From: Microcaldota archaeon
Lineage (GTDB): Archaea; Micrarchaeota; Micrarchaeia; Micrarchaeales; CABMGC01
Assembly: GCA_027334165.1 (NCBI GenBank)
Contig: DAHWXM010000007.1
Span: 1 to 42,488, forward strand
Direction: 5' to 3'
Length of the DNA stretch: 42,488 nt
Shown: piece after piece, positions 16,656-36,013 of the stretch
Numbering within the stretch: the first letter of the stretch is position 1
Layout: each line of letters opens with the position of its first letter
Notes under the pieces: generated by a model
Seen by the model: only the letters and a program-made list of their open reading frames with translations
Told to the model about the DNA's origin: nothing
Databases searched by the model: none
Position numbers and translations under genes: made by a program

Positions 16656-19600
16656 TTGCTGTACCTTAAAAGCCTGACCATAGACAGATTCAAGTCCTTC
16701 AAGCACGCGGCGATAGAGATAGGCAAGGGGTTTACGTGCGTGGTCGGGCCAAATGGCAGCGGGAAGAGCAACGTGTGCGACGCGCTGCTCTTTGGGCTGG
16801 GCGAGAGCTCGCTTGGCAGATTCAGGGTGTCAAGGCTTGAGGAGCTCATACCCGACGGGGTGAAGAAAAAGAAGGGGGAGGTTTCGAAAAGCAGGGTGGC
16901 GCTGGAATTTGCCGGGGAAAGTGGCCTGTCAATTTCAAGGATAGCGAGGTCTGATGGAAAAACAGAATATTTGATGAACGGCAAACGCACCACGAGACAG
17001 GAAATGATAGAGGTGCTTAACAGCAACGGCATACGCGCAGACGAGACAAGCACAATAACTCAGGGTGAGATAAACAGGATAATATCGCTAAACCCGAAGG
17101 AAAGGCGCGAGCTAATAGACATAGCCTCTGGGATAAAGGAGTTCGAGGCGAAGAAGGCAGACGCACTGCGGGAATTGGAGAAGGTCGGTCAGCGGCTTGT
17201 TGAGGCGCAAGCGGCGCTGGGCGAAAAGTCAGGGTTCCTTAAGGAACTTGAAAGAGAGAAAGAGGCGGCAGAGCGATATGCGGTGCTGACAAAAAAACTC
17301 AAGTCGTTGAAGTACAGCGTGCTGGTCGCCAGGAAGAAGGCGCTTTCTGCCGCGGTGGATGCGTACACCAAGGAGATGGCCGTAGAGGACTTCAAACGTA
17401 ACGACACAGAGATGAGAAGAAGCGAGATTGCCAAGAGGCTAGGGGATTTTGATGCGGAGCGACAGACGATAACGCACGAACTTAGCACGGGAAGCAGTGC
17501 GATGAGCGAGACCAGCACGAAGCTAGAGGAAATAAACCGGGAGTTGGTTATGCTGAGCGGCGAAATAAGCAGCCAGAAAAATATGCTTGTTGAGATAGGC
17601 ACTTTCACCTCGGATTCGGAAGGGGAAATCGCGAATATCAGGACGCGCATATCCGAGAACCTTGGAAAGATCACAGAGCTCGAAAGGAGGGCGCCGGCCC
17701 TTGAGAACGATGCGTCAGCTTATACTCCTTCACGGGAGATGGATGCCGGAACTGGGAATATGGAAGCGCTCGAGAGGGACATATCCGCACTAGAAAGGGA
17801 GGTGGAATCCAAGAGCAGGGAACTTGACCGCCTCAGGGCTGACGCCACTGCCGCAGGAAGAGATGCGGAGAGGGCAGCAGTAGCGGCACTTGCCTTGCGC
17901 AAGAAACTTGACGAGATATCGGGCAGCATAGCAGGCATCGCAAAGGATGTCGCGACCCTCGAGAAGGACATGAAATCCGCACGGGAGGGCATACGCGGAC
18001 ACGAATCTAGGCTTTCCGCGCTTTTGTCTGAGATATCGGAAAACGATGAAAAGGTCATAATGGCTAAGGAGGAACGTGCCGGAGTTTCCGCAAGAAATGG
18101 AAATATGGCGGTACGGGTTCGCACCGCATTCGGAAAGGACAAACGTTTCTATGGCACCGCCGGGGAGCTGTGCACTTATGATTCGGAACGCGCAGTGGCG
18201 ATTGAGACGGCAGCAGGAGGGAGGCTGGATTACTTCGTGGTAGAGGACATGGCCATGGCAGACAGGATAATATCATTCCTGAAGGCAGAACGGCTCGGGC
18301 GTGCCACGTTCATACCACTTAACGAACTACGCGTTGGCAGGCGAGATGGACCAGAGAAGGATGCGGAGCCAGCCATAGATGCCGTCGGATTTGATAAGGC
18401 GCTTGAGAAGGCCTTCGTTTACATCTTTGGGAATACGTACATAGTGGACAGCGTAGAACACGCGAGGAGCATAGGCATAGGCAAGCACAGGTACGTTTCG
18501 ATTGATGGCGAACTCATAGAGCAATCAGGTACTGTTTCCGGGGGATATTCCAAGGGGAGGCCCACGCTGGCCGTAGTGGAGAAACGGATTAAAGAACTTG
18601 AAGCGAAGAGGCAGGAGCTTCAGGTCGAGAGGAAGAGCGTTGAGGATAAGCTGTTTTTGGCAAGGAAGGAACTTGCGCGTGTGGAACTGCAGCTTGGGGC
18701 GCGGGAGCAGGAGAGGCGGGCGTTATCATCTTCTGCAGCTTCGGCCGAACAGTCATTGAAAAATGAAATGTCCAGAAAGGAGGCACTTGAGAAGCAGATT
18801 TCTAAGGCAGGAGAGCTTGAGCGTACCATGAGCGAAGCTCTAGGAAAGGCGTCGTCAAAGCTCGAGGCATTGAGGGAGGAGCAGAGACGCACGTACAATG
18901 AGGCCGTTGCCACGGCAAGGAACGCGGCAAGGGGGGGATTGAGCAAGACGGAACGGGAAAGGATAGAGAAGGCGCACCGCGAACTCGGTGAGATAAAAGC
19001 CGAGATAGCTAGCACTAAGAAAGAGTCAGAGATGCTAAATGCACGGCTGGATGAGATAAACAAGGCCATAGAAGACAGAAAGGAATCTGGCAAGCACATG
19101 CAGAAGATGATAGCGGATAGGGAAAAGCGTATCTCGATGCTGGAGAAAGGAAAGAGAGAGCTGGAGCTGAAGATAAAGAGCAGCGGCGACGCAAATAAGA
19201 AGTCATACGACAGGCTGTCTGCGATAAATGAGGAAGTTGAGAAACTCCGTGAGGAGAACGGTAGGATAAATGCGCAGCTCAACGAGGTTGACAGACGGCT
19301 CGGGGAGGTGAAAATGAAGAGAAATCAGGCGGAAACCAGGCTCAACGACATAAGCGCAGAACTATCCGCCTACGGAGCAGGAATAGAGACAGTTGATGGA
19401 GATGCTGACATACTTGATAGGGAGGCGGGTGTGATAAATGCCAGGCTTAACGAACTGGGCAACGTTAATCTGAAGGCGCCTGAACTGTACGAGGAGAAGA
19501 GAAAATCGGTGGACGAGACGCTCTCAAAAATCGACACGTTGGAGGCAGAGCGGCAGGCCGTGTTGCGCATGATAGAGGAGATAGACTCGAGGAAGCTCCA

Positions 19601-31022: not shown

Positions 31023-31106
31023 TGCGCCAGCCGGGGATCGAACCCGGGTATTCAGCTTTTTCCTTGATAATGGGAAGCTGAGATCCTACCACTAGATTAC
31101 TGGCGC
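31023..31106 (-). tRNA. tRNA-Gly(CCC) with a 13-nt intron at 37/38
   Basis: Minus strand GCGCCAG TA ATCT AGTGGTA GGAT C TCAGC TTCCCA[TTATCAAGGAAAA]A GCTGA ATA CCCGG GTTCGATC CCCGG CTGGCGC A; intron = 31058..31070. Confidence 0.9.
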
Positions 31107-34668: not shown

Positions 34669-36013
34669 CTATTTTAACTCTTTCTTCAGGAACCTCTCCA
34701 AAGCCGCATCAAGGGTCTTGCCCCTTGGTTTCAGCTCGTACGTGACCCTAACTATCAGCTTGTTTACTACTATCACCTTTCGTAGGTCTATGGGGGTTGC
34801 AGAGATAACGGAATCACAATCCGCGCTGTTTATCGTGTCCTGCAGGTCTCTTATCTGCTTTGGACTGTATCCCACAGCAGGCAGTTCGTCCGACAGCCTC
34901 GGATATTTCATGAACGTATCTTTTATCGAACCTACAGCATATTTCTTGGCGTTGACTATTTCCTTTGCGCCATACTCCTTCGCCGCTACGGTCCCAGCCC
35001 CAAACTTCATTCCGCCGTGTGTTATCGTCGGTCCGTCTTCCACCACAAGAACCCGCTTGCCCTTTATGTTTCCAGCATTGTCAACACGTATGATCGAATC
35101 CGCCATAACTATTCTTGCCGATTTATTTATCCCCTCCAGATTTCTGGCAACACGATCTATGTCGGACCTTTGTGCCGAGTTGGCCTTGTTTATTATGATC
35201 ACGTCCGCCAACCTCGCGACCGTTTCTCCAGGATAATAGTTTAATTCGTCGCCGGCCCGCAGCGGATCCGCCACTACAATGCTCATGTCGGGCTTCACAA
35301 ACGACGCATCGTTATTACCACCATCCCAAAGTATTACATCGGCGTCCTTCTCTGCACGCCTGAGCACCTCTCCATAATCCACCCCTGCGTATACCCAGAA
35401 CCCATTAACTATGTGGGGCTCATAATCTTCGCGCTCCTCTACGGTGGTCTTATACCTGTCAAGGTCTTTCAAGTCTTTAAAAACCTCCACCGACTGTTCC
35501 TTCAGGATCCCATATGGCATGGGGTGCCTTATTATTGCAGCCTTTACCCCATGTTCTCTGAGCCAAAGCGATATGTATCTCGAAGTCTGACTCTTACCAA
35601 CCCCCGTTCTCACGCCACAAACAGAAATGACGGGTTTAGAGGATTTTATCATCGTGCGCTCCGGGGCAACAAGCCAGAAGTCGGAGCCATTTGCATTTGC
35701 TATGCTAGCCTTCTCCATCACATCGACGTACCGGAGGTCGCTATACGACATGACGCACACCCCAACATTCATGCTTTTCACGAGCCGCGGCAGTTCGCTT
35801 TCATCATATATCCGTATGCCCTTCGGATAAAGGCTACCGCTGAGCTCTTTTGGATACATCCTCCCGGAAATGAACGGTATTTGCGCAGCGGTAAATCCAA
35901 CCACGTTGTAGCTGGGATCGGAGCGGAACAAGACGTTGAAGTTGTGGAATACGCGGGCCCTAGAGCCTATCGCGACCAGCCGCCCCTATTATGATAACAT
36001 TTTTTGTATCCAT
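34669..36013 (-). CDS. cpgS: cyclic 2,3-diphosphoglycerate synthetase-like (COG2403); two exons: 36013..35969 and 35949..34669
   Basis: Exon 1 MDTKNVIIIGAAGRD, exon 2 FHNFNVLFRSDPSYNVVGFTAAQIP...; CGVRTGVGKSQTSRYIS P-loop. Spliced length 1326 nt = 441 aa + stop. Confidence 0.8.
35950..35968 (-). other. candidate 19-nt bulge-helix-bulge intron in a protein-coding gene
   Basis: Minus strand 5'-GGTCGCGAT[AGGCTCTAGGGCCCGCGTA]TTCCACAAC-3'. CGCG/CGCG 4-bp helix, 3-nt bulges AUA and UAU, inner hairpin GGCU-CUAG-GGCC. Removal restores the frame. Confidence 0.8.

Follow-up and report, generated by a model that had tools for sequence, protein, structure and literature searches.

A candidate bulge-helix-bulge intron in the pre-mRNA of a Micrarchaeota protein-coding gene, with inserts at the same nucleotide in four further species

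Introduction

A 19-nt insert in a protein-coding gene of a Micrarchaeota archaeon is very probably an archaeal bulge-helix-bulge (BHB) intron, carried in the pre-mRNA of a gene that we call COG2403-like, a family name that may fit and serves here as a label only. The insert itself, boundaries set by homology, a paired structure with covariation, a filled site in five species (the carriers) and the genes for the enzymes are observed directly. By all available sequence tests the insert is a BHB pre-mRNA intron, and from these tests we infer its splicing. BHB introns in archaeal tRNA and rRNA genes are standard. The window analysed here, a stretch of 42,488 nt, is contig C1 of a Micrarchaeota genome of 816 kb in 21 contigs, a metagenome bin that is 82.9% complete.

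A 19-nt Insert in a Conserved Reading Frame

The gene lies on the minus strand and runs from an ATG at window position 36013 to a GAT, continues behind the 19-nt insert (AGGCTCTAGGGCCCGCGTA, 35950-35968) with TTC and ends with a stop at 34669. Read through the insert, the frame stops after 17 residues (MDTKNVIIIGAAGRDRL-stop), and with the 19 nt removed the ORF has 441 aa. The parts of the gene are:

35969-36013, minus strand: exon 1, ATG to GAT (MDTKNVIIIGAAGRD); matches the conserved N-terminus of relatives
35950-35968, minus strand: putative 19-nt intron (AGGCUCUAGGGCCCGCGUA) with in-frame UAG; homologous site filled in G082, G107, G257 and G192
34669-35949, minus strand: exon 2, FHNFNVLFR... 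onwards, with 426 codons followed by the stop codon; no internal stop, 72% protein identity to the nearest relative
35929-35931, minus strand: internal TTG, start of the mechanical ORF; starting here drops 21 residues including the conserved GAAGRDFHNFN

The boundary of the insert is set by the protein alone: single deletions of every length from 1 to 39 nt were tried around it, and GRDFHNF was restored by none but the exact 19-nt deletion. A preliminary description of this DNA had placed the start codon, the insert, the early stop and the spliced length at these same values, and it had located the expected N-terminus in another frame upstream of TTG 35931, which agrees with the match of exon 1 to the conserved N-terminus of relatives. 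The alignment of homologues that it had proposed as a check on GRDFHNFN gave GAAGRDF(H/Q)xFN without interruption. Within its own genome the 19-mer occurs once. The name cyclic-2,3-diphosphoglycerate synthetase-like, which the product had been given earlier, is no more than approximate: partial matches were obtained to structures of that enzyme in the PDB (9sxb, E=1.6e-7; 8oru/8ork, E=1.8e-5), but the Pfam and NCBIfam profiles returned no family match to the gene product.

Predicted Structure at the Insert and Proposed Splicing

The transcript is predicted to fold at the insert into a BHB with a central helix CGCG/CGCG, two 3-nt bulges (AUA and UAU), an inner hairpin GGCU/GGCC and a weak outer helix UGG/CCA (3 bp), whose U-U mismatch adjoins the BHB core. 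The elements, from 5' to 3' on the transcript, are:

35975-35978, minus strand: outer helix, 5' strand UGGU; forms 3 bp and a U-U mismatch with 35945-35948
35971-35974, minus strand: central helix, 5' strand CGCG, in exon 1; pairs with 35952-35955, paired in 5/5 carriers
35968-35970, minus strand: 5' bulge AU^A, cut predicted at 35969/35968; a cut after the second bulge base falls on the homology-set boundary
35964-35967, minus strand: inner helix, 5' strand GGCU; pairs with 35956-35959, covaries among carriers
35956-35959, minus strand: inner helix, 3' strand GGCC; pairs with 35964-35967
35952-35955, minus strand: central helix, 3' strand CGCG, in the putative intron; CGCG retained in 5/5 introns despite lengths of 19-31 nt
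35949-35951, minus strand: 3' bulge UA^U, cut predicted at 35950/35949; placed by the single-deletion test
35945-35948, minus strand: outer helix, 3' strand UCCA; across carriers, the outer helix is paired in 75% of its cells

Splicing would begin with the organism's tRNA-splicing endonuclease (ARMAN epsilon2 type), which would cut each bulge behind its second base. RtcB would then ligate GAU to UUC in frame to yield the 441-aa protein, whereas translation of an unspliced message would end at the in-frame UAG, after 17 residues. Transcription through the insert, cleavage and ligation are the steps that we infer here. Helices, bulges and the weak, mismatched outer helix are those of the preliminary description, whose point that protein frame and RNA structure agree to the nucleotide is borne out, as the cuts in the bulges coincide with the boundaries from the unique deletion that gives GRDFHNF. 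When random 19-mers are placed at the site, a 4-bp central helix together with an inner helix of 4 bp or more forms in 3e-4 of draws, and in 8e-5 of draws if the central helix is restricted to Watson-Crick pairs. A blind BHB scan of 635 kb had zero specificity (381 matches for the 3-3 bulge geometry vs 380-439 for control geometries), so the weight of the evidence lies on the homology-set boundary and not on the motif alone. The fold energy of the window's own copy is unremarkable (z=+0.39).

Inserts at the Same Nucleotide in Other Micrarchaeota

At exactly this nucleotide, four further Micrarchaeota species have inserts of 21, 21, 31 and 19 nt, and the carriers span four families, including that of the window:

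G082 (= L044/L224, MAS3.bin65): 21-nt insert AGGCCACTTTAGGCCCGCGGA
G107, a family other than the window's own: 21-nt insert AGGTCTGAATAGACCCGCGGG
G257, third family: 31-nt insert TGATCAAAAGCTTTTGTTTTTGGTCCGCGAA
G192, fourth family: 19-nt insert TAGCCAGAAGGTTCGCGAA

All five inserts contain an in-frame stop, and two of the lengths are multiples of three while three are not. Stop read-through or a single frameshift can therefore not account for all five, whereas precise removal does. The earlier claim that the in-frame UAG would make the full-length protein dependent on splicing gains four species whose inserts, also at this nucleotide, contain a stop and can form a BHB. The carrier assemblies are independent; most assemblies are metagenome bins, some of them with low coverage. 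That the window comes from a bin of 82.9% completeness might speak for an assembly or sequencing artefact, but this explanation is close to negligible in view of five different sequences of 19-31 nt at one nucleotide position in five species, some of them on contigs of 100-244 kb, and of the lack of any other gene-scale frame disruption in 433 kb of the window's own genome.

The inner helices of the five carriers (GGCU/GGCC, GGCC/GGCC, GGUC/GACC, GAUC/GGUC and AGCC/GGUU) are paired in 20/20 cells, with double compensatory changes in 3/4 pairs across carriers, which is the covariation in relatives that the preliminary description had asked after. The 4-bp central helix, between two 3-nt bulges on opposite strands, is likewise paired in 20/20 cells. 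Pairing in the outer helix reaches 75% of cells; this helix is weak (2-4 bp), as in the window's own copy and in G257. Overall, 91.7% of cells in the five carriers are paired vs 20-51% with the partners slid, a control that favours the BHB since the structure was named by the analyst, in an alignment that omits loops to line up the arms. Shuffled inserts form the central and inner helix at frequencies of 0.0007-0.0019 per carrier. In G257 and G192 the BHB cut fits one of two equivalent registers of the exon boundary. The CGY arginine codon that supplies the exon strand of the central helix is found in 5/5 carriers vs 45/137 genes overall (p=0.003). Folding in short context gave the BHB core as the optimum in 4/5 carriers and a competing fold in G107; in longer context G082 favours another fold, with a central-helix probability of ~0.1.

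A ribosome could also hop over the stop and the hairpin by translational bypassing, as in T4 gene 60, and a stop at or soon after the take-off codon plus a hairpin would suit this. Translational bypassing generally uses matched take-off and landing codons, but here the take-off codons GAU/GAC do not match the landing triplets GUA, GGA, GGG, GAA and GAA. Moreover, what is conserved is the set of BHB features, among them the pairing between exon 1 and the insert, and the cut geometry fits the endonuclease, so that bypassing seems highly improbable.

The codon positions of the gene bear on another alternative, in which the insert is retained and translation begins at an internal codon (TTG 35931 in the window, TTG in G082, ATG in G107), the short form being functional or the gene being on its way to loss. 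Exon 2 diverges from that of the nearest relative by 0.25 at first, 0.17 at second and 0.59 at third codon positions. Exon 1 of the window and that of G107 differ at 0/11, 0/11 and 9/11 (0, 0 and 0.82) of these positions, and between carriers in general the differences in exon 1 are almost confined to third positions. These patterns indicate purifying selection on the gene, and on exon 1 as well. The third-position bias in exon 1 speaks against decay and against a start at TTG 35931, although some of the divergence may have arisen before the intron did. Candidate start codons are present downstream and the unspliced message stops early, as an internal start would have it. Still, the conserved GAAGRDFHNFN would be lost, exon 1 is intact in 5/5 carriers, exon 2 has no other stop, and there would be no reason for five inserts each to form a BHB exactly at the exon boundary. 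We therefore consider an internal start very unlikely and retain the BHB intron as the preferred reading.

Splicing Machinery and Search for Further Introns

The genome of the window encodes one RtcB and a 385-aa splicing endonuclease built from two PF01974-like halves, a layout that we assign to the ARMAN epsilon2 type. A splicing endonuclease is also encoded in both carriers tested (G082 and G107). The ARMAN epsilon2 endonuclease has relaxed BHB/BHL specificity (PMC12397907). In several relatives the COG2403-like and endonuclease genes lie at most about 4 kb apart, an arrangement that is not found in the window genome:

G107 C33:2798-5921 and G059 C1:70423-74136: neighbourhood of the COG2403-like and endonuclease genes

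A separate observation in G059 is that of tandem arrays in which a gene family of roughly 500 aa is present in many copies (C1, about 680-740 kb; L210-L212).

Several tRNA introns are present in the genome of the window, one of them within the window:

31023-31106, minus strand: intron-containing tRNA; Rfam tRNA 54.4 bits, missed by ARAGORN in default mode

The most fitting assignment of this gene is tRNA-Gly(CCC), interrupted at the canonical position by a 13-nt intron (31058-31070) whose BHB is TTCC / CA^T / GGAA / AA^A. Very small introns would thus be normal in this genome.

A second intron-bearing protein gene was not found when 433 kb of the genome (about half) were compared with 800 kb of a relative, a search that misses short first exons; the scan for frame or stop disruptions against the ORFs of the relative yielded just shadow ORFs and likely rRNA. 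Two candidates were rejected. Firstly, paralogues of a large surface-protein-like family in the same genome (L170:4664-5593 and L166:11565-12428) have internal stops but look like genes in decay, which they probably are. Secondly, an aIF2beta gene (L169:16700-17109 / L339; C8 of the window genome near 16759-17088) lacks an in-frame ATG, GTG or TTG; in this genus its start codon seems to be CTG, or TTG in a single species, preceded by a conserved GGTG motif. A conserved CUG start of an initiation-factor gene may merit attention.

Distribution and Origin

The COG2403-like gene occurs in 153 genomes of the class, that of the window included. Five of the 137 distinct aligned genes have the intron and the site is empty in the other 132. 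Genes that had been flagged with an internal stop (G012, G048, G264, G186 and others) were discarded as further cases, the site being without insertion; the stops in G264, G186, G189 and G195 are at the C-terminus and that in G272 is at alignment column 324. Carriers do not form a clade but lie dispersed over the gene tree, with at least five changes. Empty genes are sisters of carriers, namely L036 of G082 (support 99) and L052 of G107 (support 98); L299, another sister gene, is also empty. Bacterial bins (Eisenbacteria and planctomycetes; L101, L103-L111) encode intronless homologues with 51-57% identity to the COG2403-like protein, and the gene has likely moved between domains.

The genes of G257 and G258 share 93% identity from about nt 195 onwards, but in the 120 nt that surround the site identity falls to 74% (p=2e-8). 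This drop of 0.19 compares with 0.06 for the next most extreme of 25 close pairs, and it likely reflects local replacement by recombination around the intron site, which may have brought or removed the intron. Since the two genes differ in the intron yet are 93% identical outside the tract, the gain or loss would be recent. The window gene and that of G082 share 35/36 nt just after the junction, with 66% identity overall; this flank is suggestive of co-conversion but no proof of it, as another pair of similar divergence also reaches 35.

The inserts of the five carriers, 19-31 nt without an ORF, hold no homing endonuclease. The pattern CGCGAYAGGN{4,24}CCCGCG gave 26 matches in 303 genomes, a number close to that of the reversed control, and only three of them are at this gene; there are thus no recognisable intron copies elsewhere. 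The intron could have been gained repeatedly, could be ancestral and have been lost many times, or could have moved horizontally. Our preference is for movement into a preadapted site, that is, repeated arrival at one favourable exon site through local recombination or insertion, over a single ancestral intron. Going further, and as a tentative suggestion that may well prove wrong, the intron could be a minimal mobile element of 19-31 nt without a gene of its own, which would repeatedly have entered one proto-splice site in different Micrarchaeota. At this site, GG N CGYGAY^TTYCA, the exons would already provide one central-helix strand and a portion of the outer helix, and entry would occur by reversed BHB splicing or by recombination with intron-bearing relatives.

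Comparison with Known Archaeal Introns

Introns in archaeal protein-coding sequences belong, in the literature searched, to a single gene family, cbf5 of Crenarchaeota (PMC2738675; PMC7714728), where they occur in the pre-mRNA of Sulfolobales and Desulfurococcales; unconfirmed predictions for other protein genes are also mentioned (PMC2738675). Like the present inserts, the cbf5 introns are small (16-44 bp), free of ORFs, located inside the protein-coding sequence and dependent on BHB-like recognition; they are cut by the tRNA-splicing endonuclease, as is proposed here, and their presence among relatives is patchy in both cases (PMC2738675). The cbf5 gene encodes a pseudouridine synthase and not a COG2403-like protein, and phylum and endonuclease type differ (PMC2738675). 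Most cbf5 structures are described as unconventional, whereas the central and inner helices are canonical here, and splicing was established by cDNA for cbf5 (PMC2738675) and is predicted from sequence in our case. A further difference from cbf5 is that the present carriers are isolated species with intronless congeners and that a tract of local exchange surrounds the site.

HVO_1309 of Haloferax volcanii has a BHB intron in the 5' UTR, and according to that study just one other example had been reported (PMC7714728). It is likewise an mRNA substrate of the splicing endonuclease, but its intron lies in the 5' UTR and leaves the reading frame uninterrupted (PMC7714728). BHB introns in tRNAs of ARMAN/Micrarchaeota share the motif, the epsilon2 enzyme type and a similar size with the present inserts, but the substrate is tRNA and not mRNA (PMC12397907). 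Putative 12-bp introns in protein genes of an archaeal virus (Peng et al., as cited in PMC2738675) are also very short inserts in archaeal protein genes that were proposed to be BHB introns; their length is a multiple of three and their splicing putative, whereas the present inserts carry stops or shift the frame (PMC2738675). The preliminary description knew of no such intron in this gene, and in line with this no BHB mRNA intron of Micrarchaeota or of a COG2403-like gene was found in the literature searched, a body of work that subscription papers mostly fall outside, so that priority is uncertain.

Within that literature, the gene would be the second archaeal protein-coding sequence with BHB introns, in a new gene and a new phylum, and the BHB pre-mRNA intron is possibly mobile. 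It offers five natural intron versions at one nucleotide, in a phylum with the relaxed ARMAN endonuclease. Gene callers overlook such introns, because the mechanical start shifts to an internal TTG, as it does here. With a gene pair that differs by the intron and is 93% identical outside the tract, the origin of archaeal mRNA introns becomes testable.
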